DNA of 64,000 bases, from positions 1 to 64,000 of the forward strand of contig CANCPC010000001.1 of NCBI GenBank assembly GCA_947379965.1, in the 5' to 3' direction. Positions 1,384 to 57,901 of the stretch are shown piece after piece. The position numbers and the translations under genes are program-made. The stretch comes from Flavobacteriaceae bacterium (GTDB lineage: Bacteria; Bacteroidota; Bacteroidia; Flavobacteriales; Flavobacteriaceae). Each line of letters starts with the position of its first letter. Position 1 is the stretch's first letter. The notes under the pieces are model-generated. The model was given only the letters and a program-made list of their open reading frames with translations, had not been told where the DNA came from and searched no databases.

Positions 1384-3357
1384 TTAGTCTACATTGTCAT
1401 GCAAAAAAGAATTGTTTGAACGCAATTGTAAATCATCATTGCTGTCTGTTCCGACAGATATTCTAGAATTTGCGGAGTTAGATTGCGCATTCGAAAGATC
1501 TATTCCTAATCTTTTGTAGGCTGGTTCTCTTTCTAGTTCGTCAATTTTTGAAATATTACTGTGAAATTTATAATTGAATTCTTTGAGTTTTTTTCTTCTC
1601 TCGTCTGCTCTGAATTTTAATGTTTCTTCGATTGTCATTTCCATTGGAGAAATAGAGGAGTACTCAGAAGAAGTAACTTCAACACTTTCTACTTTTTTCA
1701 TGGTAATATTTAACTCTTCAGGAATCACTTGTTCTACGATTTCTTCTTGTTTGGCTTCTGAAAAAACCTGCTCTAACTCGGTAAATTCTTCTAGTGAATA
1801 TCTGATAATTCCCTTATCGGTCAATTCGGTTACCGGTACAAATTGAACAGCATCATTCACTTTAATATCACGAGTTTCATTCGTCAATTCGAATATAATT
1901 GTATTTTCTTCAACTTTAGCTACTGGTTCAGTAACTGGCGCTGGGTTAAAAAGTGGCAAATCGAAAGAAAAAGCAGTTTGTTCTTGTCTTTCTGCAGTTT
2001 TGGCAGCAACTACTTCTATCGTTTTTTCTTGTTCACTTCTTGTAGTTCCTAAAAAACTTTCGATTTTTGGTGTAGTAACTTGAAAATCAATATCCTTAAT
2101 TGGAGAAACTATTTCGAAAGTTACATCTAAATTTTTTATAAATTCAGACATAACCATTAATTCTTCTTTATTGATTGAAACAACTTCAGGCTCTTCAATT
2201 GTATCTTCTAACAATTCAAAAACAATTCTTTCGTTAGAACTTACAGAGGTAGATTCATTATCCAAATTAAATGCAGGAATAGCCTTTGTTGTCAAATCTA
2301 GCTCGCTTTTTTGTTCGTCACCTAGAACATGAATAATTTTATTAGGAGGTGTATTTACAATTTCATTTTGTTGTTCGATATCAAATCCAGTTGCGATAAT
2401 GGTAACTGAAATCGAATCACCTAGCGATTCTTCTTCACCAACACCCATAATAATATTAGCATTATTTCCTGCTTCTGCTTGAATATAATCATTGATTTCA
2501 CCTATTTCATCAATAGTGATTTCGTCAGATCCTGAAACGATGAGCAACAATACGTTTTTAGAACCTGTGATTTTATTATCATTTAATAATGGGGAATCTA
2601 AAGCTGAAATAATCGCTTCTTTCGCTCTATTTTCGCCTGACGCAACTGCAGATCCCATAATAGCCGTTCCGCTATTATACAAAACTGTTTTTGCATCTTT
2701 TAAATCGATATTTTGAGTATAGTGGTGCGTAATTACTTCGGCTATTCCTCTTGAGGCTGTTGCCAAAACTTCATCCGCTTTAGAAAAACCGGCTTTAAAA
2801 CCAAGATTTCCGTATACTTCTCTTAATTTGTTATTATTGATAACAATTAAGGAATCGACTTGTTTGCGTAATTTATCAATTCCAATGAGCGCTTGCTCTT
2901 GACGAACTTTACCTTCAAACAAGAAAGGAAGGGTAACAATGCCTACTGTAAGAATATCTCTTTCTTTAGCCAATTGAGCAATTACTGGCGCAGCACCTGT
3001 TCCTGTTCCTCCACCCATTCCTGCGGTGATAAAAACCATCTTGGTATTACTATCAAGCATTTTTTCTATATCCGAAATACTCTCTATAGCAGATTGCTGA
3101 CCTACATCTGGGTTTGCACCAGCACCAAGTCCTTCGGTTAAGTTAACACCTAACTGGATTTTATTAGGAACAGAACTGTTATCCAATGCTTGAGAATCAG
3201 TATTACAAACGATGAAATCAACACCTTTGATACCTTGCTTAAACATATGGTTTATGGCGTTACTTCCGCCGCCACCTACTCCTATAACTTTAATTACATT
3301 TGATTGGTTTTTTGGTAAATCAAATGAAATACTTCCAAATTCTGAGTTGCTCATCAT
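1384..3357 (-). CDS. ftsZ: Cell division protein FtsZ with long C-terminal extension
   Basis: Tubulin signature GGGTGTGAAPV; start IKVIGVGGGGSNAINHM; 657 aa. Confidence 0.98.
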   Translation of the reverse strand: MMSNSEFGSISFDLPKNQSNVIKVIGVGGGGSNAINHMFKQGIKGVDFIVCNTDSQALDNSSVPNKIQLGVNLTEGLGAGANPDVGQQSAIESISDIEKMLDSNTKMVFITAGMGGGTGTGAAPVIAQLAKERDILTVGIVTLPFLFEGKVRQEQALIGIDKLRKQVDSLIVINNNKLREVYGNLGFKAGFSKADEVLATASRGIAEVITHHYTQNIDLKDAKTVLYNSGTAIMGSAVASGENRAKEAIISALDSPLLNDNKITGSKNVLLLIVSGSDEITIDEIGEINDYIQAEAGNNANIIMGVGEEESLGDSISVTIIATGFDIEQQNEIVNTPPNKIIHVLGDEQKSELDLTTKAIPAFNLDNESTSVSSNERIVFELLEDTIEEPEVVSINKEELMVMSEFIKNLDVTFEIVSPIKDIDFQVTTPKIESFLGTTRSEQEKTIEVVAAKTAERQEQTAFSFDLPLFNPAPVTEPVAKVEENTIIFELTNETRDIKVNDAVQFVPVTELTDKGIIRYSLEEFTELEQVFSEAKQEEIVEQVIPEELNITMKKVESVEVTSSEYSSISPMEMTIEETLKFRADERRKKLKEFNYKFHSNISKIDELEREPAYKRLGIDLSNAQSNSANSRISVGTDSNDDLQLRSNNSFLHDNVD

Positions 3358-3399
3358 CTTATGGTTTTTATATTTTTACTATTCTTTTTATTATTAACT

Positions 3400-4776
3400 T
3401 TATTCTGCGTTGTCTAAGAAATCTTTAATCTTACCTACGTATTTATCAAAAAAGGACTCTCTGATTTTTTTTTCTGTAGACTCTTCTTTTTTGATATCAA
3501 TCGGCGTTTCTATTTCATTTACAGGTTCCTCAATTTCTTCCATTGGAGGCTCTGGCGCTCTGTAAATCGGTACTTTTGGTGCTTCAACTACATCTATTCT
3601 TACGGCACTTTGAGTGTTATTTTCAATGCTATTCATTACTAAACCAACCGCTGTTGCATATAAAGGACTAGATATTTCTTCATCTGAATTCCCTGCTAAA
3701 TGCTCGTTTGGATATCCAATTCTAGTATCCATACCCGTAATGTATTCTACTAATTGCTTAATATGTTTCAATTGTGCTCCACCACCAGTAAGTACAATAC
3801 CTGCTATTAGTTTTTTACGAGGATCCTCATGACCATAATCTTTAATCTCCGTAAAAACTTGCTCTATAATTTCGACAACACGTGCGTGTATTATTTTAGA
3901 CAAATTCTTCAAAGAAATCTCTTTTGGCTCTCGTCCTCTTAAACCTGGTATAGAAACAATTTCATTGTCTTTATTTTCACCTGGCCAAGCAGATCCAAAT
4001 TTAACTTTCAATAATTCAGCTTGTTTTTCAATAATCGAACAACCTTCTTTAATATCATCCGTAATTACGTTGCCACCAAAAGGAATCACAGCAGTATGAC
4101 GGATAATTCCATCTTTAAAAATAGCTAAATCCGTTGTTCCTCCACCAATATCAATTAATGCAACTCCTGCTTCTTTTTCTTCTTGACTTAAAACCGCATC
4201 CGCCGAAGCTAATGGTTCCAAAGTCAATCCTGATAATTCAATTCCCGAACTTTGGATACATCTCCCTACATTTCGTATTGAAGCGGCTTGCCCAACTACA
4301 ACATGAAAACTAGATTCTAATCTACCACCATACATTCCTATAGGCTCTTTGATATCCGATTGCCCGTCTATTTTAAATTCTTGAGGCAAAACATGAATTA
4401 TCTCTTCCCCCGGTAACATTGCTAATTTGTTCACTTGGTCAATTAAAAGCTGAATGTCATTTCCACTAATTACCTCTTCCGCACTGCTTCTAATAATATA
4501 ATCACTGTGTTGAATACTACGAATATGCTGACCAGCAATACCTACAACAACATCTTTTATTTTATAACCAGACTTATTCTCGGCTTCTAAAACTGCTTGC
4601 CTAATAGATTGAATTGTTTGAGTAATATTGTTAACAACCCCTCTTGCAACCCCTAAGCTATTTGCTTTGCCTATACCTAAAATTTCTAGCTTACCGTATT
4701 CATTTTTCTTGCCTATCATTGCAACAATTTTTGTTGTCCCAATGTCTAGACCTACTGCAATATTCTCTTTTTCCAT
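3400..4776 (-). CDS. ftsA: Cell division protein FtsA
   Basis: Actin-like ATPase motifs (VGLDIGTTKIVAMIG, ALIDIGGGTTDLAIF, GIVLTGGGAQL); immediately upstream of ftsZ. Confidence 0.97.
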   Translation of the reverse strand: MEKENIAVGLDIGTTKIVAMIGKKNEYGKLEILGIGKANSLGVARGVVNNITQTIQSIRQAVLEAENKSGYKIKDVVVGIAGQHIRSIQHSDYIIRSSAEEVISGNDIQLLIDQVNKLAMLPGEEIIHVLPQEFKIDGQSDIKEPIGMYGGRLESSFHVVVGQAASIRNVGRCIQSSGIELSGLTLEPLASADAVLSQEEKEAGVALIDIGGGTTDLAIFKDGIIRHTAVIPFGGNVITDDIKEGCSIIEKQAELLKVKFGSAWPGENKDNEIVSIPGLRGREPKEISLKNLSKIIHARVVEIIEQVFTEIKDYGHEDPRKKLIAGIVLTGGGAQLKHIKQLVEYITGMDTRIGYPNEHLAGNSDEEISSPLYATAVGLVMNSIENNTQSAVRIDVVEAPKVPIYRAPEPPMEEIEEPVNEIETPIDIKKEESTEKKIRESFFDKYVGKIKDFLDNAE

Positions 4777-4782
4777 TATCGA

Positions 4783-5505
4783 TTATTTAGTACAAACTAC
4801 TTGTTGCGAAAACCTTAGATCAATTATTTTATATTTATATAACGAACTATCTAAAACTGCTTTTTGAAAAAAAGCTTTGTAATTATTGAATTTGGCTTTC
4901 ATTCGTACTGTTCCACCAAAATCAATTTGATAATTAAAATTCCTATTCAGCATTTTCAAGCTCCCGTTTGGCATAATTTGAACACCAATGATATTTTTTT
5001 TCAAAAATTCATCGTCATGAATTATGCGAAATAATTCGGCTAAATTGTCGCTGTTCATCTTGCTGATTTCCCCAGAAACAAGTGGAACTCTAGCAGTAAA
5101 ATTGGTCGATAACGGCATGGTATTTCCTTTATAATCAATATAAAAGGAAGCCTCTCCGTTAAAAACTCTAGCCACAGGGGTTTTTTGTTTTACTCTTGCT
5201 TTGAGCACTCCGTCTACGCTCACAAACACTTCTGCTTTCTCAATCATTTCTTGAGCATTCAGTGCTTTTTCCAATTTATTCAAATTTAATTTATCTTTAC
5301 CTATACTTTTTGCTTCTCTATTATTTTCTATTAACAATTTATTAACCGTTTCCCGATTAACAAAAGGAGCGTTATCTCCTACAAAAAAAACTTCAGATTT
5401 AGTCAGTTTTCTAGTTTCATTCCGTTTTGAAGTGAATGAAAACAAAAAAACAACTAATGAAAACATCAGTAATAATCTAATGTTTGTCCAATTAATTAGT
5501 CTCAT
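4783..5505 (-). CDS. ftsQ: Cell division protein FtsQ
   Basis: One N-terminal TM segment then a POTRA/FtsQ-like region; position between murC and ftsA. Confidence 0.85.
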   Translation of the reverse strand: MRLINWTNIRLLLMFSLVVFLFSFTSKRNETRKLTKSEVFFVGDNAPFVNRETVNKLLIENNREAKSIGKDKLNLNKLEKALNAQEMIEKAEVFVSVDGVLKARVKQKTPVARVFNGEASFYIDYKGNTMPLSTNFTARVPLVSGEISKMNSDNLAELFRIIHDDEFLKKNIIGVQIMPNGSLKMLNRNFNYQIDFGGTVRMKAKFNNYKAFFQKAVLDSSLYKYKIIDLRFSQQVVCTK

Positions 5506-6841
5506 CTAACGCTTTTTTAATTGACGGAACCATTTCTCCAATATCGCCAGCTCCAATAGTTACAATAACGGTTGCATCGCTGTCTAAAATTGAAGTAATC
5601 AAATCCTGTTTTTGTATTAATTTTTTATGATAATTATTCATTTTATCCATTAACCATTGCGACGTAATTCCTTCTATTGGCAATTCACGAGCGGGATAAA
5701 TATCCAGCAAAAGCACTTCATCAAATGCTGAAAGACTTATTGCAAAATCATCAGCAAAATCTTTAGTTCGGCTAAACAAATGCGGTTGAAAAACGGCCAA
5801 AACTTTTTGGTTTGGATACAATTCACGAACTGCTTGATGAACGGCATTTATTTCGGTAGGATGATGTGCATAATCATCAATATAAACTAAATTTTCATTT
5901 TTTATTTGATACGAAAATCTTCGCTTGATTCCTTTAAATGAATGCAAGGCACTAGCAATGTCTTCGTTTGGGAGGCCGAAAGTTTTCGCCATCGCCAATG
6001 CCATTAATGCATTCATTAAATTATGTTTTCCAGGTAAACCAAATTGCAAATTCAAGATGATTTCTGTTGGTGTTTGTACGTCAAATACATACTGACTATT
6101 TACAATACGAATGTTGCAAGCTGAGAAAACGGCTTCTTCGTTTACAGCACAAGTCATTCCTTTTATAGGCAACTCTTTAGTAATAAATAGATTGCTTTTA
6201 TCTTTAACCTTATCTGCAAATTCAACAAATGAAGCTTCGATTGCTGATTTATCTCCATAAATATCTAAATGATCCGCATCCATAGAAGTTACGCAAGCAA
6301 TATTAGGATTCAAATGCAAGAAGGAGCGATCAAACTCATCGGCTTCTACAACAGTAACCGTTTTTCCGTTTCCAATTAAATTGGAATTATAATTTTCGAC
6401 AATTCCTCCAATAAAAGCAGTAACATCAACACCACTTTCAAAAAGAATATGTCCAAGTATTCCTGATGTAGTTGTTTTACCATGTGTTCCTGCAACTGCA
6501 AAACAAAATGTTTCTTTAGTAATAATCCCTAGAACTTCGGCTCTTTTCTTAACTTCATAATTGCGTTCTATAAAATAATTCCACTGCGAATGTTGTTTTG
6601 GAACTGCTGGGGTAATAATCACTAAGGTGTTTTCTACATAATAATCTGCCGGAATCAAATCTATGGCATCTTCAAAATGAATTGCAATTCCATGTTGCTG
6701 CAATTCTTTTGTTAATTGCGTTTCAGTTTTATCATAACCAGATACATTCTTACCGATGGTTTTGAAATAACGCGCCAAAGCACTCATCCCAATCCCTCCG
6801 ATTCCTATAAAATAAACGTTATGTATTTGATTTAGATTCAT
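5492..6841 (-). CDS. murC: UDP-N-acetylmuramate--L-alanine ligase
   Basis: [44 protein letters not shown] motifs. Confidence 0.97.
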
Positions 6842-7926
6842 TTTATTAATTTAACTATTTCGTCAACAATTTGTTTTGTTGCGTTTGGCAAAGCCAAATG
6901 CTTTATGTTTTTACTCAATTGTTCTTGCTTCCCTATATCCTTTAACAAAGCTTCGAAAACAAGACTAAATTCCGATTCAAGTTCACTTTCTTTTATCATA
7001 ATCGCCCCTTTTTGATCGACCACTGATTTGGCATTTTTGGTTTGATGATCTTCGGCTACGTTTGGCGACGGAATAAAAATTACTGGTTTACCAACAATAC
7101 ACAATTCAGAAACAGAAGAAGCTCCCGATCGAGAAATCACGATATCGGCAGCTGCATAAACCAAATCCATTCGGTCAATAAAAGCTGAAATCTGTACATT
7201 TTCTGAATTATATTTTTTATATTCATCGATATACAACTTACCACATTGCCAAATAATTTGAATATTATGCTTTTCAAAAGAGGCTAATTCTTTTTCTACT
7301 AATTGATTAATTCTTCTTGCACCAAGGCTTCCACCAAGAATTAATACCGTTTTTTTAGAAGCATCTAAATTAAAATATTGAATCGATTCTTCTCTTTTAC
7401 TTTCAATGTCAATTAAATCCTGACGAACTGGATTTCCTGTTAAAATCATTTTTTCTTTTGGAAAAAAGCGTTCTAAATTCTCGTAGGCAACACAAATTTT
7501 ATTCGCTTTTTTGCTCAATAATTTATTGGTTATTCCCGGGAATGAATTTTGTTCCTGAATCACCGTCGGAATATCCAAAATATTTGCCATTTGTAATAAA
7601 GGCCCCGAGGCAAAACCACCAGTTCCTATAACCACATTCGGTTTAAAATGCTTAATTATTTTTCGAGATTTCCATAAACTATCTATCAATTTGAATGGAA
7701 ACATTGCGTTTTGCATCGTCAATTTTCTTTGCAAACCAGCAATCCAAAGTCCCTTAATAGCATATCCCGCCTGAGGCACTTTTTGCATTTCCATTTTATC
7801 TTTGGCACCCACAAAAAGAAATTCGGCATCTGGGAAACGAGACTTTAATTCATTAGCAATCGCAACCGCAGGATAAATATGGCCTCCTGTTCCACCGCCA
7901 CTTAATATGAATTTATACTTTGCCAT
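6838..7926 (-). CDS. murG: UDP-GlcNAc--undecaprenyl-PP-MurNAc-pentapeptide GlcNAc transferase
   Basis: [16 protein letters not shown] and [10 protein letters not shown] motifs. Confidence 0.97.
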
Positions 7927-7942
7927 TTTTTCTACTTTTTAA

Positions 7943-9244
7943 TTATTTATTCAAAACTGCATTCATTGGATTATTTGCATTGTCTTGAATAGAATAATTT
8001 TCATCACCATTCAAATCCTCTTCGCGTTCTAATTCTAATTCCTTATCTATAAGTTTTTGAAGCGCTGCTTCTCTGATTGCTTTTTCCTGAATTTCTTCAG
8101 CGATTTCTTCGTCTTTTTTGGTTACGTTTATGATGATTCCTAAAGCAATACATGTCATCCATATCGAACTTCCTCCGCTACTTATAAGTGGCAAAGTTTG
8201 CCCAGTTACTGGCAATAATTCAACTGCTACCGCCATGTTGATCATCGCTTGAAAAATCATCGGAAATCCCAAACCAACCACTAATAATTTTCCGAATAAG
8301 GAATTCGATTTATGAGCGGCAACAATGAACCTGAAAAACAATAATAGGTATAAAAATAAAACACCCAAACCGCCTACTAATCCCCATTCTTCTACAATAA
8401 TAGCATAAATAAAATCGGATGATGACTGAGGTAAAAAGTGTTTTTGCACACTTTTTCCAGGTCCAAGTCCGTAAATTCCGCCAGAAGCAATGGCTATTTT
8501 TGCTTTTTCTATTTGGTAATCATCTTCGCCAGGCTTGTTGGTTTTAAAGTTTTCGATTCGGCTTGTCCAAGTATCTACTCTACTAAAAAAGTGAGAATCC
8601 GGAAATGATTTCGCTAATAATACAAATAAAACTAGTCCTGCAATGCCTGCCCCTATTATAAACCCAATATATTTTAGAGGATATTTCCCTACGAAAGCCA
8701 ACATTAAAACCATGGAAAATATTAATGCAGCTGTTGAAAAATTAGAGGGTAATATAAACATCAAGGTAACAAAAACGGGGAGCCAAAGTTCTAATAATGA
8801 GGCTTGAAAAGTAGGCTCATCTTCTTGCTTTTTAGATAAATATCGAGCTACATAAAGCATCAAAACAATAGAAGCCAATGTCGATGTTTGAAAAGTAATT
8901 CCAATAAAAGGCACTTGAATCCACCGACTGGCATTGGCACCTGCGATAACAGTTCCTTTTACCATTGTATAGGCTAATAATAGCCAAACAATAGGCAATA
9001 AAATTTTTGAGATTCCTTTATAATAATGAAATGGCACTTTATGAACCCAGTAGATAATAATAAATCCAATGAAAATATGAGCCAAATGTTTCAGTAAAAA
9101 ACTCATTGTATTTCCTGTTCCGTGGTTCATGTAAGCCAAATTACTACTCGCACTAAAAACAGGCATAAACGAAAACAAGGCTAATAAAGCCACAAACGAC
9201 CATATTACTCTGTCTCCTTTTAGATTGTTTATTAGTTCTTTCAT
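7943..9244 (-). CDS. ftsW: SEDS-family cell division protein FtsW
   Basis: Polytopic SEDS protein; GLVGGLGVLFLY, LPVTGQTLPLISSGGSS motifs. Confidence 0.95.
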   Translation of the reverse strand: MKELINNLKGDRVIWSFVALLALFSFMPVFSASSNLAYMNHGTGNTMSFLLKHLAHIFIGFIIIYWVHKVPFHYYKGISKILLPIVWLLLAYTMVKGTVIAGANASRWIQVPFIGITFQTSTLASIVLMLYVARYLSKKQEDEPTFQASLLELWLPVFVTLMFILPSNFSTAALIFSMVLMLAFVGKYPLKYIGFIIGAGIAGLVLFVLLAKSFPDSHFFSRVDTWTSRIENFKTNKPGEDDYQIEKAKIAIASGGIYGLGPGKSVQKHFLPQSSSDFIYAIIVEEWGLVGGLGVLFLYLLLFFRFIVAAHKSNSLFGKLLVVGLGFPMIFQAMINMAVAVELLPVTGQTLPLISSGGSSIWMTCIALGIIINVTKKDEEIAEEIQEKAIREAALQKLIDKELELEREEDLNGDENYSIQDNANNPMNAVLNK

Positions 9245-9318
9245 TTTTATTGGGTTTTGGGTTTCGGACTTTGGGTATTAGGTCAAACAGTTAGCACCTA
9301 TAACCCAAAACCTATTTT

Positions 9319-10656
9319 TTACAAATTCCTTACTGCTTGTTTAAATTGATTTCCTCTGTCTTCATAGTTTTGAAATAAATCGAAACTTGCGCATGCTGGC
9401 GACAATAATACGGTATCTCCTTTTTCGGTAAGATGTTGTGCCATTTTTACAGCATCAGCCATAGTATCAACTTCAACCATCATATCTACAACATTACCAA
9501 AAACGTCAATGATTTTATTATTATCAATCCCAAGACAAATAATCGCTTTTACTTTTTCGCGAACCAAAGACATCAATTCGTTGTAATCATTGCCTTTATC
9601 AACACCTCCAACTATCCATACTGTAGGGGTATTCATGCTATCTAAAGCAAAAAAAGTAGCATTGACATTCGTTGCTTTTGAATCATTAATATATTGTACA
9701 TTTTGAATTTTCAACACTTTTTCTAAACGGTGTTCTACACCTTGAAAATTGGATAAACTTTCGCGAATCGTGGCATTTCTAATTTTCATCAATTTTGCTA
9801 CAGAAGTTGCTGCCATCGCATTTTTCATATTATGCTTGCCTTCAAGAGCCATAGTTTCAGTTTCCATTAAGAATTCTTCTTCGTTGATGATATTTACTTC
9901 CATATTTTTATTTTTTATAAATGCTCCATTTTCGAATGTTTTTGTCAAAGAAAATGGAATTAATTGTGCTTTTGTTTTATTGATTTTGAACCAATCGGCG
10001 ATCACTTCGTCATCGGCGTCGTAAATGAGGAAATCCTCCTCTGTTTGATTCATCGTTATTCTAAATTTCGAGGCAATATAATTTTCATATTTGTAATCAT
10101 ATCGATCTAAATGATCCGGACTTATATTTGTGATTATGGCAATGTGTGGCTTATAATCTATGATTCCGTCCAACTGAAAGCTACTTAATTCTAACACGTA
10201 AGAATCATATTTATCATCCGCAACTTGCCAGGCAAAACTCTTTCCTATATTACCTCCCAATGCCACATTCAAACCAGCCGATTTTAGCAAATGATGCGTG
10301 AGCATTGTAGTTGTCGTTTTGCCATTACTTCCTGTAATTCCAATGGTTATTGCTTTTGTAAAAGGAGCAGCAAACTCAATTTCGGAAATAACTGAAATCC
10401 CTTTGGCAACTAATTTTTTTAAAATGGGTGCTTTTTCAGGAATACCTGGGCTTTTCATAACCACATCGGCATTCAAAACCAAGTCTTCCGTATGCTTTTC
10501 TTCTTCCCAAGCAATGCCATAATTGATAAGAACTTCTTTGTAATTTTCTTTTATCTTTCCAAAATCGGACACAAATACATCATATCCTTTTTTCTTTCCA
10601 AGAATTGCAGTTCCAACCCCGCTTTCGCCACCTCCAAGAATTACGAGTCTTTTCAT
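9319..10656 (-). CDS. murD: UDP-N-acetylmuramoylalanine--D-glutamate ligase
   Basis: GITGSNGKTTTTMLTHHLL and YINDSKATNVNATFFAL motifs. Confidence 0.97.
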   Translation of the reverse strand: MKRLVILGGGESGVGTAILGKKKGYDVFVSDFGKIKENYKEVLINYGIAWEEEKHTEDLVLNADVVMKSPGIPEKAPILKKLVAKGISVISEIEFAAPFTKAITIGITGSNGKTTTTMLTHHLLKSAGLNVALGGNIGKSFAWQVADDKYDSYVLELSSFQLDGIIDYKPHIAIITNISPDHLDRYDYKYENYIASKFRITMNQTEEDFLIYDADDEVIADWFKINKTKAQLIPFSLTKTFENGAFIKNKNMEVNIINEEEFLMETETMALEGKHNMKNAMAATSVAKLMKIRNATIRESLSNFQGVEHRLEKVLKIQNVQYINDSKATNVNATFFALDSMNTPTVWIVGGVDKGNDYNELMSLVREKVKAIICLGIDNNKIIDVFGNVVDMMVEVDTMADAVKMAQHLTEKGDTVLLSPACASFDLFQNYEDRGNQFKQAVRNL

Positions 10657-10729
10657 TTTTTTGTTAATTTGTTAATTTGTTAATTTAGTTAATCGATTAA
10701 ACGAATAACCAGATAAACGAATAACCTTT

Positions 10730-11959
10730 TTATCTTAATTTCAAAGTAACGATTGATAATATGGCGAGCATTATGGCAACAATCCAAAAACGGGTTACAA
10801 TCTTGCTTTCGTGGTAGCCTTTCTTTTGATAATGATGATGCAAAGGCGCCATCAAGAATATTCTTCGGCCTTCGCCAAAGCGTTTTTTGGTATATTTGAA
10901 AAAGCCTACTTGCATCACAACTGATAAATTTTCGACCAAAAATATTCCGCATAATAAAGGAATCAATAACTCTTTTCGAACTGCAATTGCAAGTACTGCT
11001 ATAATCCCTCCTATAGTTAAACTACCCGTATCACCCATAAATACAGATGCCGGAAAGGAATTATACCAAAGAAAACCAATTAATGCTCCTACAAATGCTG
11101 CAATAAAAACGGTCATTTCTCCTGAATTTGGGATGTACATAATATTCAAATAAGTAGAGAAAATAATGTTACCCGAGACGAAAGTAAAAATCCCTAATGC
11201 CAAGACCGAAATGGCCGAGGTTCCTGCTGCTAAACCGTCAATTCCATCAGTCAAGTTTGCACCGTTTGAAACTGCTGTTATAATAAAGATAACGACCGGT
11301 ATAAAAATTAACCAAGCCCATTTTTCATAGCCTTCCCCTGTCCAAGCCAAAACTTTGGCATAATCAAATTCGTTATTTTTAAAAAATGGAATTGTAGTAG
11401 CAGTAGATTTCACTTCAATTGGTCCTTGTGAAATCGTAGTTTCAGTTAGAACTCTATTAACATCACTATTACTTGCCGAAGTTCTAACAGTTACTACAGG
11501 ATTAAAATACAGAACCGAACCTACAATCAACCCTAAACCTACTTGTCCGAAAACCTTAAATATCCCTTTTAAACCTTGTTTGTCTTTTTTGAAAATCTTG
11601 ATATAATCATCTATAAACCCAATAGTCCCCATCCATAAAGTGGTAACAATTAATAACAAAATATAGACATTCTGTAATCTAGCAAATAACATTACCGGAA
11701 TTAAAGTCGCAATAATTATAATTAATCCTCCCATTGTTGGTGTTCCTGCTTTTTCATTTTGACCTGCTAAACCAAGTTCACGAACCGTTTCACCAATTTG
11801 TTGATTGCGTAAAAAAGTAATAATTCTTTTTCCATAAATAGTAGACAACAAAAGAGAAAGCATAAATGCCAATGCCGATCTAAAAGTAATGTACTGAAAA
11901 ACACCCGTTCCTGGGATATTCAACACTTTGTTTAAATATTCAAATAAATAATACAGCAT
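10730..11959 (-). CDS. mraY: Phospho-N-acetylmuramoyl-pentapeptide transferase
   Basis: [41 protein letters not shown] motifs. Confidence 0.97.
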
Positions 11960-12036
11960 ATATTGTCGTTTATTTGGTTAATCTTTTATTTGTTTAAATT
12001 TTATAGGCTTTCGATTAGACGAAGAACCTATTAACC

Positions 12037-13500
12037 TTATTTACCTAATTGTTCTATAAATTCCTTTACTATTTTCATATCATCAAAATCATGGCGAACA
12101 CCTTGAATTTCTTGATATGTTTCATGTCCTTTTCCTGCGATTAGGATAATATCATTGGGCTGCGCCAGTTGACAAGCTGTTTTTATAGCTTGCTTTCTAT
12201 CGGTAATTGACAATGATTTTTTATAATTTTGAGGAGCAACACCTTGTTCCATTTCTTGAATAATAACTTCCGGATCTTCATTTCTAGGATTGTCCGAAGT
12301 CAGGATTACTTTATCGCTAAGTTCCGCTGCAATACCTGCCATAACTGGTCTTTTTGCTTTGTCTCTATTTCCGCCACAGCCGACAATAGTTATAAATTGC
12401 TCATTTTTTGTTCGGATATCATTAATCGTTTTTAATACGTTTTCAAGTGCATCGGGTGTGTGTGCATAATCTACAATTGCGGTAATATTCGAATTGGAAA
12501 CAATAAACTGAAAACGTCCTGAAACACTTTCTAAATCAGACAATAATCGAAGAACTTCAAGACTTTCTATTCCTAATTGAAGGGCAGTACCATAAATTGC
12601 CAATAAATTATAAGCGTTAAAAGTCCCAATAAGTTTTACCCAGACTTCATTTCCGTTGATTTTCAACAACAATCCCGACAATTGATTTTCGAGAATTTGC
12701 GCTTTATAATCGGCATAGGATTTTAGCGCATACGTCAATTTTTTTGCTGCCGTATTTTGCAACATTACTTGTCCGTTTTTATCATCGATATTCGATAATG
12801 CAAAAGCAGTTTTTGGCAAATTGTCGAAAAACGATTTTTTTACATCTCGATATTCGGCAAAAGTGGGATGATAATCTAAATGATCGTGCGATAAATTGGT
12901 AAAAACACCACCTTCAAAATGCAATCCTTCGGTACGTTTTTGATGAATTCCATGTGAGCTCACTTCCATAAAACAATAGTCAATTCCGCTGTCAACCATT
13001 TCTTTTAAATAATGATTTATCGTTATTGAATCAGGAGTTGTATGAGTGGCTTTGTATTCTTTATCGTCAACAAGAATTTTTACTGTAGACAAAAGCCCTA
13101 CTTTGAAACCTGCCTTTTTGAATAATTGATATAATAAGGAAGCAATAGTTGTTTTGCCGTTTGTACCCGTTATACCAACTAATTTTAATTTTTGCGAAGG
13201 ATTTCCAAAATAATTCGCCGCCATATAAGCCAATGCTTTATTGGTGTCTTTTACTTGTACATAGGTAATCCCTTTTTTAATTGTTTCAGGAAATTCATCA
13301 CAAACAATAGCTATTGCACCTTGTTCAATTGCTTTTTCAATATAATTATGTCCATCTGAAATTGTACCACGAATAGCCACAAAAACATCATTTGCACCAA
13401 TATTTCTGGAATCGAAATCCATTTTATCGATAGCAATATCTGTTGAACCTTTTACGGCTTCAATAGCTACTTTGTATATTATTTCTTTTAAAATAATCAT
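12037..13500 (-). CDS. murE: UDP-MurNAc-L-alanyl-D-glutamate--2,6-diaminopimelate ligase
   Basis: GITGTNGKTTIASLLYQL; DNPRNEDP (meso-DAP specificity) motif. Confidence 0.97.
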   Translation of the reverse strand: MIILKEIIYKVAIEAVKGSTDIAIDKMDFDSRNIGANDVFVAIRGTISDGHNYIEKAIEQGAIAIVCDEFPETIKKGITYVQVKDTNKALAYMAANYFGNPSQKLKLVGITGTNGKTTIASLLYQLFKKAGFKVGLLSTVKILVDDKEYKATHTTPDSITINHYLKEMVDSGIDYCFMEVSSHGIHQKRTEGLHFEGGVFTNLSHDHLDYHPTFAEYRDVKKSFFDNLPKTAFALSNIDDKNGQVMLQNTAAKKLTYALKSYADYKAQILENQLSGLLLKINGNEVWVKLIGTFNAYNLLAIYGTALQLGIESLEVLRLLSDLESVSGRFQFIVSNSNITAIVDYAHTPDALENVLKTINDIRTKNEQFITIVGCGGNRDKAKRPVMAGIAAELSDKVILTSDNPRNEDPEVIIQEMEQGVAPQNYKKSLSITDRKQAIKTACQLAQPNDIILIAGKGHETYQEIQGVRHDFDDMKIVKEFIEQLGK

Positions 13501-15503
13501 GACAATTCTAATGTTATTATTGTGTTTTTAGCTAAACTTCCACCTGGTTGTAGGGATTGTTTCTTTACCCTTCCAATACCAATTATTTTTACTTTTACTC
13601 CAAGATTTTCAAAAATAGCAATCGCATCCATTCCCGACATTCCTTTCACATCAGGAACAATTGACACTTGCTGCTTTTGAGACTTTACAAAATAAGAATC
13701 ATAATCATTATCCTGAACCTGTACTTTATTGTTTATATTTTTAATTTCGTTTCTCGAAGGAGAATCGGTAAAGATCTTCTGAGCAATTTTCTTGAAAACG
13801 GGTCCAGCAACATCAGCTCCATAATAATTATTATGAGCCGTACTTGGTTTATGAACCACAACTATGCAAGAATATTTTGGATTATCAGCAGGAAAATAAC
13901 CAACAAAAGAAGAAGCATAATATTTATCTGCCCCTCCATTTGTAGAATAATTGACTTGCGCTGTTCCTGTTTTTCCAGCCATAGAAAAGTCTTTCGAATA
14001 TAGTTTTGAAGCAGTTCCTTTTTTGACCACATTCAACATAACCGCTTTCAATTTCTTAATCGTTTCTAGCGAACATACTTTAGGGTTTATAACTTCCTTG
14101 TCATATTTTTTTATGGTTCGGTTCCACGCTTTAATTTCTGAAACAAATTGTGGTTTTACCATTTCTCCATTATTGGCAACAGCATTATAGAATGTCAATG
14201 TTTGCAAAGGTGTAATAGAAACTCCGTAACCAAAAGCCATCCATGGAAGCGAAAGATTAGACCAACTTTTATCTGTTGGTTGCGGAACTCTAGGAATTCC
14301 TTCTCCTTTAATCGAAATTCCCAAACGTTTATTCAATCCGTATTTATTGATATGATTGACGAATTGCGAAGGATTATTTTTGTAATTATTATAAACCGCT
14401 TGGACCATCACTGTATTAGAAGACAATTCGAATCCGCGAGCTAAACTTATTTTATCATAACCACCTGCATGAGAATCTTTTACATGCTTTCCTGAATACG
14501 TAATATCTCCGCCATGGGTATCGAAAACAGCACTAGTATCAATTTTTTTATCTTCAAGCAAGTTCATCAAATCGACTAATTTATAAGTAGATCCTGGTTC
14601 GTGAGCTTCGGCAACTGCATAATTTGTTGTCTCGTAATACGTGCCGTCTTCTGCTTTTCCTAAATTAGAAATTGCTTTTATATAACCTGTTTTAGTTTCC
14701 ATAACTACCACGCAACCGTGATCTGCTTGATACTCTTCTAATTGTTTTAACAAAGCATGATGGGCAATGTCTTGAACAAAAACATCAATTGTCGAAACCA
14801 CATCATAGCCATCCTGAGGATCAACTTCATTCATATCACGAATAGGTTTCCATTGTCCTTTTGAAATTTTTTGTTTCAAAATCCTACCGTCTTTTCCATT
14901 CAGATAATTGCGAAAGGCCCATTCAATTCCTTTTCCATCAGACGCTCCGGTTGGCGTTTTTCTTTCGTAACCAATAGTTCTCTCGGCAATTCCTCCAATA
15001 GGGCGTTCTCTAACTGTTTCCTGTTCAACAATAATTCCACCTCTATAAGCACCTAAACTGAATAAAGGAAATCCTTTAATTTTAACAAAATCAGTATAAT
15101 TCAGGTTACGGGCCACTAAATAATATCTGTTTTTATTAGCTCGAGCTTTTCTTAATTCATTAAAGTAAAAACTACTCGGTTTTCCCAAAAGCTTTCCCAG
15201 CGAATCTGATAATGGTTTTACATTTTTTTCGAAATCTTCTATTTTTGACGCAACCGCATCGAGTCGGATTTCATAATTAGGAATAGAAGTAGCTAACAAG
15301 CTTCCATCAGCTGAATATATATTCCCTTTATTAGCAGGAATTACAAAATTTCGAACGGTTCTTTCTTTGGCTAATTTTCTATAATAATCACCATTGACCC
15401 ACTGAATATTTGTCAACTTTATGACAATGGCAATTGCCATCAAAAAGATGGCAAAAGCTACCAGATACATTCTGTAGGATATGTGTTTATCTTCTACTGC
15501 CAT
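13497..15503 (-). CDS. ftsI: Penicillin-binding protein FtsI/SpoVD-like transpeptidase with C-terminal PASTA domain
   Basis: SSNT motif, KTGTAQV motif, C-terminal PDVKGMSGMDAIAIFENLGVKVKIIG PASTA repeat; dcw position. Confidence 0.93.
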   Translation of the reverse strand: MAVEDKHISYRMYLVAFAIFLMAIAIVIKLTNIQWVNGDYYRKLAKERTVRNFVIPANKGNIYSADGSLLATSIPNYEIRLDAVASKIEDFEKNVKPLSDSLGKLLGKPSSFYFNELRKARANKNRYYLVARNLNYTDFVKIKGFPLFSLGAYRGGIIVEQETVRERPIGGIAERTIGYERKTPTGASDGKGIEWAFRNYLNGKDGRILKQKISKGQWKPIRDMNEVDPQDGYDVVSTIDVFVQDIAHHALLKQLEEYQADHGCVVVMETKTGYIKAISNLGKAEDGTYYETTNYAVAEAHEPGSTYKLVDLMNLLEDKKIDTSAVFDTHGGDITYSGKHVKDSHAGGYDKISLARGFELSSNTVMVQAVYNNYKNNPSQFVNHINKYGLNKRLGISIKGEGIPRVPQPTDKSWSNLSLPWMAFGYGVSITPLQTLTFYNAVANNGEMVKPQFVSEIKAWNRTIKKYDKEVINPKVCSLETIKKLKAVMLNVVKKGTASKLYSKDFSMAGKTGTAQVNYSTNGGADKYYASSFVGYFPADNPKYSCIVVVHKPSTAHNNYYGADVAGPVFKKIAQKIFTDSPSRNEIKNINNKVQVQDNDYDSYFVKSQKQQVSIVPDVKGMSGMDAIAIFENLGVKVKIIGIGRVKKQSLQPGGSLAKNTIITLELS

Positions 15504-15841
15504 ATTTTTTTGAAAAAACTTTTCTCCTCTTCTTTCTTAATTGTAATTTTTACTGGAGGAACTGTTGATGGATAAATTTTCTTTTCTACCATTTTTTCTG
15601 AAACAGTCGACTCCATTTTTAACTTCATTAATTCCGAACGTCGATCCACAAATTCCGAACGTAATTCTTTGACTTGACTTGTCAATTCATTGATTCTAAA
15701 TACTTTTTGTTCAAAACGTTGCGTATTAGCAATCATAATTATGGCAAGAATGATCAAGAAAACAATAAAACGCCAGTTCTTTATTGAATCATCATCAATA
15801 AGAAAACGCGCTTTCAATATGCCATAAACTCCTTTTTTCAT
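15494..15841 (-). CDS. ftsL: FtsL-like cell division protein
   Basis: 115 aa bitopic protein with coiled coil (INELTSQVKELRSEFVDRRSELMKLKMES) between rsmH and ftsI. Confidence 0.8.
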   Translation of the reverse strand: MKKGVYGILKARFLIDDDSIKNWRFIVFLIILAIIMIANTQRFEQKVFRINELTSQVKELRSEFVDRRSELMKLKMESTVSEKMVEKKIYPSTVPPVKITIKKEEEKSFFKKIWQ

Positions 15842-16743
15842 TCTAAATTTTTCTTTTCAGCAATTCTTAATTTGGCACTTCTTGCTCTGTTATTGATCTT
15901 TATTTCGTGATTGTCCGGAACAATTAGTTTACCAATCGTTTTAAATGGAACAGAAAAATTACCAAAAAAATCACGTTCTGGTTCCCCCTCAAACATTCCA
16001 TTTTTCATAAATCTCTTTACCAATCGATCCTCAAGTGAGTGATAAGAAATAACACTTAATCTTCCTTCAGGTTTCAAAATCTCTAATGATTGCTCAAGAA
16101 ACTCTTTCAAAACATCCATTTCTTGGTTGACTTCTATTCGAATGGCTTGATAAATTTGAGCCAATATTTTATTCTTCAATCGATCAGGTAAATATTTCAA
16201 CAAAACTTCTTTCAATTCATCGGTGGTTTTAATCGGACGATTTTCTCTTGATTCAATAATGGTTCGTGCCAAAGCAGGGGCAATTTTCAATTCACCATAA
16301 TCCAAAAAAACTCTTTTAAGGTTTGATTCATCATATTCATTTACAACCCTATAAGCATTCAGGTCATTTTTTTGACTCATTCTCATGTCCAAACCAGCAT
16401 CAAAACGAGTCGAAAAACCTCTTTCAGGAACATCAAATTGATGAGATGAAACCCCTAAATCAGCTAAAATTCCATCCACATTTTTCACACCATAAAAACG
16501 CAAAAATCTTTTTATAAATCTAAAATTCTCATTGATTAGCGTAAATCTTTCATCTGGTAATGCGTTTGCCAATGCATCTTCATCTTGATCAAATGCAAAT
16601 AATTGACCTTTTGGCCCTAGCCTACTTAAAATTGCTGCCGAATGTCCGCCACCACCAAAGGTTACATCAACATAAATTCCGTCCGGTTTTATATTCAAAC
16701 CATCCACCGAAGCCTGAAGCAAAACCGGATTATGATATTCCAT
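15838..16743 (-). CDS. rsmH: 16S rRNA (cytosine1402-N4)-methyltransferase
   Basis: MEYHNPVLL, VDVTFGGGGHSAAIL, SYHSLEDRLVKRF motifs. Confidence 0.97.
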   Translation of the reverse strand: MEYHNPVLLQASVDGLNIKPDGIYVDVTFGGGGHSAAILSRLGPKGQLFAFDQDEDALANALPDERFTLINENFRFIKRFLRFYGVKNVDGILADLGVSSHQFDVPERGFSTRFDAGLDMRMSQKNDLNAYRVVNEYDESNLKRVFLDYGELKIAPALARTIIESRENRPIKTTDELKEVLLKYLPDRLKNKILAQIYQAIRIEVNQEMDVLKEFLEQSLEILKPEGRLSVISYHSLEDRLVKRFMKNGMFEGEPERDFFGNFSVPFKTIGKLIVPDNHEIKINNRARSAKLRIAEKKNLE

Positions 16744-17203
16744 TATCGCTGTTATTTATGTTTCCCATTACCTCTTCGGCAAGGTCTGCAAAATCTACAT
16801 CCTCCCCACTAATTGATTTTTCATATGAATCTTTATCCCATATTTCAACAATATTAACAGCCGATGAAAACACAACATCTTTCGAAATACTTGCAAAATT
16901 CACCAAATCTTTTGGAACCAATAATCGACCTAAAGCATCGATCTCAACTACTTTTACTCCAGCAGTAAACCTGCGGATAAAGTCATTGTTTTTCTTTACA
17001 AATCGATTGAGTTTGTTGATTTTTTCCATCATCAAATTCCATTCTTCAATAGGGTACAATTCTAAACAGGATTGAAAAACCGAACGCTTTAAAACAAAAC
17101 CGTTTTGAAGTGAAGTAGCCATTTGCTTTTTTAAAGGCGATGGCAACAATAGCCTGCCTTTAGCATCAACCTTACATTCATATGTTCCAACAATTGTATT
17201 CAA
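16730..17203 (-). CDS. mraZ: Division/cell wall cluster transcriptional repressor MraZ
   Basis: Two SpoVT/AbrB-like halves (CKVDAKGRLLLPSPLKKQM, VEIDALGRLLVPKDL); first gene of the dcw cluster. Confidence 0.95.
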   Translation of the reverse strand: MNTIVGTYECKVDAKGRLLLPSPLKKQMATSLQNGFVLKRSVFQSCLELYPIEEWNLMMEKINKLNRFVKKNNDFIRRFTAGVKVVEIDALGRLLVPKDLVNFASISKDVVFSSAVNIVEIWDKDSYEKSISGEDVDFADLAEEVMGNINNSDNGIS

Positions 17204-17228: not shown

Positions 17229-17236
17229 CAAAAATA
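17229..17236 (-). promoter_or_regulatory. Candidate -7 element (TATTTTTG) of the mraZ/dcw promoter
   Basis: Matches TAnnTTTG; 26 nt upstream of the mraZ ATG. Confidence 0.5.
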
Positions 17237-17246
17237 TAAAAATAAT

Positions 17247-17293
17247 TACCACATTTTACCACAAAATACCACTTTGTTAATAAGTTTTACCAC
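17247..17293 (-). promoter_or_regulatory. Candidate MraZ operator: four direct GTGGTA repeats
   Basis: TACCAC on + at 17247, 17257, 17267 and 17288 (spacing 10, 10, 21 bp), directly upstream of the mraZ -7 element. Confidence 0.65.
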
Positions 17294-17584: not shown

Positions 17585-18358
17585 ATGGAAAAATACTATA
17601 AAAAAGAAGGAAGATACAGTTATTATGAGGCTGGAGAAGGAACTCCAATAGTTGTATTACATGGTTTAATGGGGGGATTAAGTAATTTTGATGGCGTTGC
17701 AAGCTATTTTTCAGAAAGAGGTTATAAAATCATCATTCCTGATTTGCCAATTTACACCCAAAGCTTATTAAAAACTAATGTAAAAAGTTTCGCAAAATAT
17801 GTTAAAGATTTTATTACTTTCAAAGGTTTTGATAGAGTAATATTATTAGGAAATTCATTGGGTGGCCATATTGCATTGTATCATACCAAACTTTATCCAG
17901 AAAAAGTAGCAGGACTTGTATTAACAGGAAGTTCAGGACTTTACGAAAGCGCCATGGGCGATAGTTACCCTAAAAGAGGGGATTATGAATATATTAAAAG
18001 AAAAGCTCAAGATGTCTTTTATGATCCAGAAATGGCTACAAAAGAATTGGTTGACGAAGTTTACGCATCAGTAAATGATAGAATAAAATTGATAAAAACA
18101 TTGACAATTGCCAAAAGTGCTATTCGTCATAATATGGCGAAAGATTTGCCAAAAATGCATGTTCAAACTTGTCTTATTTGGGGGAAAAATGACAGCGTTA
18201 CCCCTCCAACTGTAGCTGAAGAATTTAGCAAATTATTACCCAATTCAACGCTTTATTGGATTGATAAATGTGGTCATGCAGCCATGATGGAGCACCCACA
18301 GGAGTTTAATCGTTTATTGGAGGATTGGTTGACACATACTCATTTGAACGCACATTAG
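17585..18358 (+). CDS. Alpha/beta hydrolase
   Basis: VVLHGLMGG oxyanion region, LLGNSLGGHIA nucleophile elbow, CGHAAMMEHPQEF catalytic His region. Confidence 0.9.
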   Translation: MEKYYKKEGRYSYYEAGEGTPIVVLHGLMGGLSNFDGVASYFSERGYKIIIPDLPIYTQSLLKTNVKSFAKYVKDFITFKGFDRVILLGNSLGGHIALYHTKLYPEKVAGLVLTGSSGLYESAMGDSYPKRGDYEYIKRKAQDVFYDPEMATKELVDEVYASVNDRIKLIKTLTIAKSAIRHNMAKDLPKMHVQTCLIWGKNDSVTPPTVAEEFSKLLPNSTLYWIDKCGHAAMMEHPQEFNRLLEDWLTHTHLNAH

Positions 18359-56521: not shown

Positions 56522-57658
56522 TTATTCACTAACTTTTTTTTGAATTTCATCTAAAATATAAAGGTAGTCTTCTTGATTTTTCACAAAATCACGATTAGTA
56601 ATATCTATCATCAATACATTTAATTTGCTTTGTGATTTGATATACTCTAAATAACCATCATTAATTTTATCCAAATAGGAAGCTGAAATATTTTGTTCAT
56701 AATCTCTGCCTCTTTTCTTGATATTGGCTAACAAACATTCGGAATTTTGATACAAATAAACATACAAATCGGGTTTTGGTATTTCCTTATAAACAATGTT
56801 AAATATCGTGCGATACAATCGATATTCCTCTTCGGCAAGTGTAATTTTGGCAAAAATCAAGGATTTAAAAATATGATAATCAGCAACTATAAAATCCTTA
56901 AACAAATCAAATTGAGCTAAATCATCATGTATTTGCTGGTATCTATCGGCAAGGAAAGACATTTCAAGCGGAAAAGCATAACGGCTTTGATCTTCATAAA
57001 ATTTTGGAAGAAAAGCATTATCAGCAAAACGTTCTAGGACCGTTTTAGCATTAAAGTCTTCGGCAAATCTTGTAGCTAAGCTTGTTTTACCTGCACCTAT
57101 ATTTCCTTCAAAAGCAATATAATTATAGTTTTCTAAAGAAATTTTATCCAATGGTATTTCTAATTTTTGAACTAAAGTGCAAACGCTTTTATCAGGAGAT
57201 ATTTCAATTAAATCTGATATTTTTTTTTGAAGAATAGGATGTTCCCAATCTAAATTCAAATCCTGCATAGGTAACAAAACAAATTTTCTGTTTTGCATGA
57301 GAGGATGGGGAACTTTTAGATTTTCGGTTTCAATTATTTCCTCATCAAAAGTGATTAAATCGATATCTATAATTCGGGATTGATAGTTTAAATTTTGGCC
57401 ACGAACACGACCCATTTTTTTTTCAATCTTTAAAAAAGCAGTCAAAACAGCCTGTGCGTTTTTATAAGTATGTAAGACCAAAGCACAATTATAAAAGGCA
57501 TCACTATCAAAACCCCAGGAGGGAGTTTCATATAAATTCGAAACTTTGATAATTGTTCCAATTTCCTGATGAATGAACTGCAAACAATTTTCTATGTTTT
57601 TTAGACGATTGCCTTGATTGGTTCCAATGGATAAAACGATCTGATGTTGTAATTTCAT
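56522..57658 (-). CDS. Fusion: HPPK (FolK)-like domain + deoxynucleoside kinase domain
   Basis: N-term VLSIGTNQGNRLKNI...GRVRGQNLNYQSRIIDIDLI...PHPLMQNRKFVLLPM; C-term YIAFEGNIGAGKTSLATRFAED...LADRYQQ. Start set at MKLQHQ. Confidence 0.92.
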   Translation of the reverse strand: MKLQHQIVLSIGTNQGNRLKNIENCLQFIHQEIGTIIKVSNLYETPSWGFDSDAFYNCALVLHTYKNAQAVLTAFLKIEKKMGRVRGQNLNYQSRIIDIDLITFDEEIIETENLKVPHPLMQNRKFVLLPMQDLNLDWEHPILQKKISDLIEISPDKSVCTLVQKLEIPLDKISLENYNYIAFEGNIGAGKTSLATRFAEDFNAKTVLERFADNAFLPKFYEDQSRYAFPLEMSFLADRYQQIHDDLAQFDLFKDFIVADYHIFKSLIFAKITLAEEEYRLYRTIFNIVYKEIPKPDLYVYLYQNSECLLANIKKRGRDYEQNISASYLDKINDGYLEYIKSQSKLNVLMIDITNRDFVKNQEDYLYILDEIQKKVSE

Positions 57659-57901
57659 ATTAGTATCAGTTTTGAAATAAACCATGCAAATTTTACGAAG
57701 TTATTTTGTTTTTTTGTGCAACAAATCATTTGAATAGGACCGCTATTGAAATGGTTTTTAACGCAGAAAAAGAGAAAATTATAAGTCAAAACAAAGTTCA
57801 CTTAACACAAATGAAAGTAAAAACATAGTGAAGTAAATGTAATGTTTATTTTGAAAAATATACTTGACCACAAATTAAGTAAAAGAATTTTAGAATTGAA
57901 C

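Follow-up and report, generated by a model that had tools for sequence, protein, structure and literature searches.

The mraZ promoter in the window analysed here (the whole stretch of DNA, 64,000 nucleotides) raises the question of which proteins read the phased repeat array that precedes the dcw cluster. The mraZ gene lies on the minus strand at 16730..17203 and encodes 157 amino acids from a TTG start at 17203; its product matches PF02381 (E 1e-24) and is similar to solved MraZ structures. The gene opens the co-directional run mraZ-rsmH-ftsL-ftsI-murE-mraY-murD-ftsW-murG-murC-(ftsQ)-ftsA-ftsZ. The members after mraZ occupy 1384..16743 on the minus strand and were recognized by Pfam and as co-directional ORFs, with ftsQ assigned by position only. 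Just past ftsZ there is a terminator-like hairpin (1361-1333), and the remaining terminator-like matches on the dcw strand fall inside genes. We infer that a single promoter may drive the whole 15.8-kb cluster.

The first-pass annotation described four exact TACCAC copies (GTGGTA on the coding strand) starting at 17247, 17257, 17267 and 17288, in steps of 10, 10 and 21 bp, just upstream of a -7-like element of mraZ. The sequence bears out each of these points, and the candidate -7 element, TATTTTTG (17229..17236, minus strand), is kept in the Flavobacterium alignment. The Bacteroidetes-type -7 consensus is TAnnTTTG. All four boxes are on the minus strand: box 1 (17247..17252) is nearest to the -7 element, followed by box 2 (17257..17262), box 3 (17267..17272) and the more distant box 4 (17288..17293). 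The array is located 43 bases upstream of the mraZ start, and the coding-strand order of the promoter is AAGTGGTAAAAC-TTATTAACA-AA-GTGGTATTTT-GTGGTAAAAT-GTGGTAATTATTTTTA-TATTTTTG.

The hexamer GTGGTA occurs 17 times in the window against 12.0 expected, an enrichment that is not significant; the signal is the phased array. Three GTGG at 10-bp steps were found once in the window, both strands considered, and in none of 300 simulated 64-kb windows. The core GTGGKN5GTGGKN5GTGGK had a single match in the whole genome of the window, at 17248-17272 of the first contig, and the reversed-pattern control gave no match in that genome. From 12 genomes searched, seven carried the three-box core, once in each and every time just upstream of mraZ.

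Conservation in relatives was one point on which the earlier proposal of an MraZ operator could have failed. For this, we compared 101 Flavobacterium mraZ loci, comprising the window, 80 loci from named records and 20 from other genomes of the same genus; some are near-duplicates, with 96 distinct sequences among the 100 aligned. At least three phased boxes precede mraZ in 100 of the 101 loci, which is the 10-bp array that boxes 1 to 3 form in the window. The exact four-box 21/10/10 layout is present in 95 loci, and 38 loci harbor an additional box 5' of it. Across the 90 Bacteroidia genomes that form the class sample, two or more phased boxes occur in 73 (0.7 expected) and three or more in 51 (0.06 expected). 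Box 4 is mainly a Flavobacterium feature and is mostly absent in other families.

The repeats at 17247-17272, at least three with a GTGK core and a 10-bp period, were then compared with known MraZ sites. The E. coli K-12 mraZ promoter (NC_000913) carries AGTGGGAAATTGTGGGGCAAAGTGGG, and MraZ boxes at this promoter were reported by Eraso et al. 2014, as cited in PMC8475190 and PMC7761207. As in the window, three direct repeats with a GTGG core and a 10-bp period stand beside mraZ; however, the E. coli boxes are GTGGG and lie downstream of the -10 element according to the account in PMC7761207, whereas those described here are GTGGT[A] and lie upstream of the -7 element. The Mollicute MraZ site, (AAAGTGKN3)3 as quoted from Fisunov et al. 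2016 in PMC5282649, has the same core and the same 10-bp period, and boxes 3 and 4 of the window read AAAGTGG and CAAGTGG. In the Burkholderia cenocepacia dcw promoter, four 7-nt repeats with 3-nt spacers are bound by MraZ in EMSA (PMC7761207), and the number of repeats is the same as here, although they are located at and downstream of the -10 element and the start site. The E. coli and Mycoplasma types of box, which had been set against each other as alternatives, share the GTGK core and the 10-bp period.

Because its core is unique to the mraZ promoter, conserved, and the same as in the E. coli boxes and the Mollicute site, the GTGGTA array is very probably an MraZ operator, presumably bound by MraZ itself. 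MraZ is reported to act as a repressor in both E. coli and M. genitalium (PMC8475190); by analogy, control here is most likely autorepressive. Taken alone, such an operator is a further case of an already known kind of site. The MraZ-operator reading thus stood as far as conservation and the core are concerned; it was incomplete in that the unit found across the class combines the MraZ array with a DnaA box.

This second part was overlooked in the first-pass annotation, in which a gap interrupts the four MraZ boxes. The 21-bp gap contains TTATTAACA (17275..17283, minus strand, read from 17283 to 17275), which takes up the helical slot separating box 3 from box 4. It lies 2 bp from the GTGGTA of box 3, and the AAAGTGG form of that box has one A in common with it. 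Its conservation is deeper than that of box 4. All 101 Flavobacterium loci have TTAT[TC]AACA beside the array, and a TTWTNMACA box is present in all nine loci of greater divergence, of which three come from the same genus and six from other families of the order. Taking these nine together with the class sample, the element stands in forward orientation, within 1-4 bp of a GTGG box, in 60 loci: TTTTCAACA in 25, TTATCAACA in 15, TTATTAACA in 12, TTTTCCACA in five, TTTTTAACA in two and TTATCCACA in one; the search pattern held six positions of the nine constant, which leaves positions 3, 5 and 6 as the informative ones in these forms. The spacing between the MraZ box and the DnaA box is 2-3 bp in 55 of the 60 genomes. 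In other lineages the box is inverted, mostly as TTATCCACA or TTTTCCACA, the former being the E. coli DnaA box consensus (PMC11317965).

An adjacent box on the forward strand alone was found in 51 of the 90 Bacteroidia genomes. When both strands were considered, inverted boxes included, 78 had a box in the slot, against 10.7 expected in shuffles, and 12 had none on either strand. In a control region some 260 bp further upstream, five of 89 genomes had a box. The window has further TTATNAACA sites at 9596, 56694 and 56787, all within coding genes. E. coli DnaA in vivo favours pairs of boxes 2-3 bp apart (PMC11317965). Unlike such pairs, the array has one clear box, with at best the degenerate neighbour TTTACCACT on the other strand (six of eight positions); across the 60 divergent loci, a neighbour scoring at least 7/8 occurs in 18, against about 10% at random positions.

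The motif TTATNAACA behaves as the DnaA box of this group, and the element beside the array matches it. In F. ammonificans (G157, NZ_AP025183), the cumulative GC skew reaches its minimum near 640 kb. Within the 454 kb read around this minimum, TTWTNMACA sites cluster most densely at 643.3-643.6 kb, inside the noncoding gap that precedes an rnr-like gene. A second genome (G010) has a local sign change of the GC skew at 1.040 Mb, the wider sampled skew being noisy, with a four-box cluster there in the same gap. A search for a DnaA-box cluster near the dnaA gene, as a test for oriC, found none, in agreement with the report that oriC of Bacteroidetes is commonly far from dnaA (PMC4755523). The Flavobacterium oriC is likely to lie upstream of rnr, at the GC-skew switch and far from dnaA, and we propose this position together with TTATNAACA as the DnaA box. 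The AT-rich noncoding gap upstream of rnr contains four TTATNAACA sites at conserved spacing in both genomes (G157:C1:643160-643880 and about 1.040 Mb in G010).

When six genomes were scanned for paired TTATNAACA sites, the matches that recurred lay upstream of hup and dnaB. Across 30 genomes, the dnaB upstream regions contain 72 sites against 1.3 expected, mostly at -209, -85 and -64, and the hup upstream regions, also from 30 genomes, contain 54 against 1.4 expected, mostly near -129 and -109; base 5 is free in both sets, and both include the genome of the window. These two genes are candidate members of a DnaA regulon, as judged from the distribution of the motif. Two or three TTATNAACA sites stand at fixed places before dnaB and hup across Flavobacteriales.

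The box sequence also follows the DnaA protein. In genomes whose mraZ box has C at base 6, the dnaB boxes mostly have C there as well (four of five genomes), and where the mraZ box has A, the dnaB boxes mostly have A (16 of 17, with one tie). Residue 435 belongs to the part of E. coli DnaA that contacts DNA bases (PMC5043019). The DnaA of A-type genomes, that of the window included, has Ala at this residue, and most C-type genomes have Ser or Thr. Base 6 is C in seven of eight Ser/Thr genomes against two of 24 Ala genomes (Fisher 8e-5, in a test that ignores descent), with G151, G097 and G154 as exceptions, and a small number of evolutionary events may underlie the C-type genomes. The box thus tracks residue 435 across lineages, descent being ignored and the three exceptions noted, and the change from Ala to Ser/Thr is a possible specificity switch. 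In domain IV of DnaA, Ala at the E. coli position 435 goes with TTWTNAACA, and Ser or Thr occurs in most proteins that go with TTWTNCACA.

We consider it quite probable that the locus is a composite MraZ/DnaA operator in the dcw promoter, at which MraZ likely autorepresses and DnaA probably modulates. The strongest alternative is a plain four-box autoregulatory operator, in which TTATTAACA would be a spacer or an extra determinant of MraZ binding and DnaA would have no role. In its favour, regulation of dcw in E. coli, Burkholderia and Mycoplasma is exerted by MraZ without DnaA (PMC7761207, PMC8475190). The box here also always adjoins the MraZ array, and arrays in other classes of the phylum mostly lack the box. 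However, the TTATNAACA motif occurs without GTGG arrays at the oriC-like regions, dnaB and hup, and the box is more conserved than box 4, inverted in some lineages and linked to DnaA specificity. We therefore regard the plain operator as unlikely.

Single DnaA boxes can act as DnaA sinks. The box could accordingly titrate DnaA, or serve the divergent upstream alpha/beta hydrolase gene (17585-18358) and not mraZ, and in 71 of 93 loci the closest ORF on the upstream side is divergently oriented. Yet the box stays 2-3 bp from the MraZ boxes, whereas the distance from the anchor to the edge of the upstream gene is variable (quartiles 189-330 bp), and one site would be a weak sink, which makes this explanation very improbable. 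Least credible of all is a sigma70-type promoter formed by TTAACA (17280) and TAAAAT (17253), with the conserved element as its -35 hexamer: it has 10 of 12 matches and a 16-bp spacing, but such sites number 80 against 70.7 in shuffled DNA, the first three bases of the element (TTA) are conserved outside the hexamer, the element turns into TTTTCCACA or inverts in other lineages, and a conserved -7 element lies further downstream.

Under the composite MraZ/DnaA operator, MraZ, the product of the first gene, would bind the phased GTGGTA boxes and most likely repress its own operon. As the boxes span approximately the position where a -33 element would stand, directly upstream of the conserved -7, RNA polymerase should be hindered once MraZ is bound. 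The probable binding site of DnaA is TTATTAACA between boxes 3 and 4, at 2 bp from box 3. The arrangement of the sites makes direct interplay of the two proteins likely, and their one-base overlap tips the balance slightly towards competition rather than cooperation. The amount of free DnaA, or its nucleotide state, around replication initiation could then alter MraZ occupancy and with it dcw transcription, and the dcw cluster could sense replication initiation via DnaA activity.

Promoters of division genes that carry DnaA boxes or bind DnaA have been described for Caulobacter ftsZ, B. subtilis ftsL and E. coli ftsQA (PMC8203912), and the present case resembles them. Unlike the box described here, these involve other genes, and neither a fused MraZ operator nor a class-wide fixed geometry is described for them; moreover, the DnaA boxes that precede ftsZ in E. 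coli turned out to be inactive (PMC8203912). On the MraZ side, the E. coli array has no adjacent DnaA box, whereas here the box is built in. For the Mollicute site, the account in PMC5282649 describes no DnaA box, whereas the array of the window also has its fourth box displaced by two turns. None is described for the B. cenocepacia promoter either (PMC7761207). Our search for mraZ with DnaA boxes or with Bacteroidetes, in a literature library with few subscription papers, found no description of the arrangement.

Arrays sampled from the other classes of the phylum are mostly preceded by a TTGACA-like promoter, with no DnaA box beside them, and the composite therefore looks like a Bacteroidia feature. 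These classes share with E. coli a GTGG array placed downstream of the promoter, which is TTGACA-like in them; the Bacteroidia array is instead found upstream of the -7 element.

The coupling of replication initiation to division in bacteria is a long-standing question. The conservation of the pair in most Bacteroidia suggests a direct and testable link between replication initiation and division proteins. The broader proposal, that across most Bacteroidia DnaA directly regulates the whole dcw cluster via the box in the MraZ operator, with dnaB and hup also in its regulon, is in our judgement evenly balanced. If true, replication initiation would be coupled to the supply of division proteins within one promoter. 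The DnaA box in the dcw operator is a single 9-bp target, and its mutation would test this coupling directly.

From 119 sampled Bacteroidia genomes, nine have no detectable mraZ (G046, G056, G062, G075, G113, G137, G143, G144 and G146). These genomes offer a natural test of whether the array and the DnaA box get lost separately. Elsewhere in the window, the ORF at 56522-57685 on the minus strand (387 aa) resembles, by eye, a fusion of a FolK-type (HPPK) domain with a deoxynucleoside kinase.
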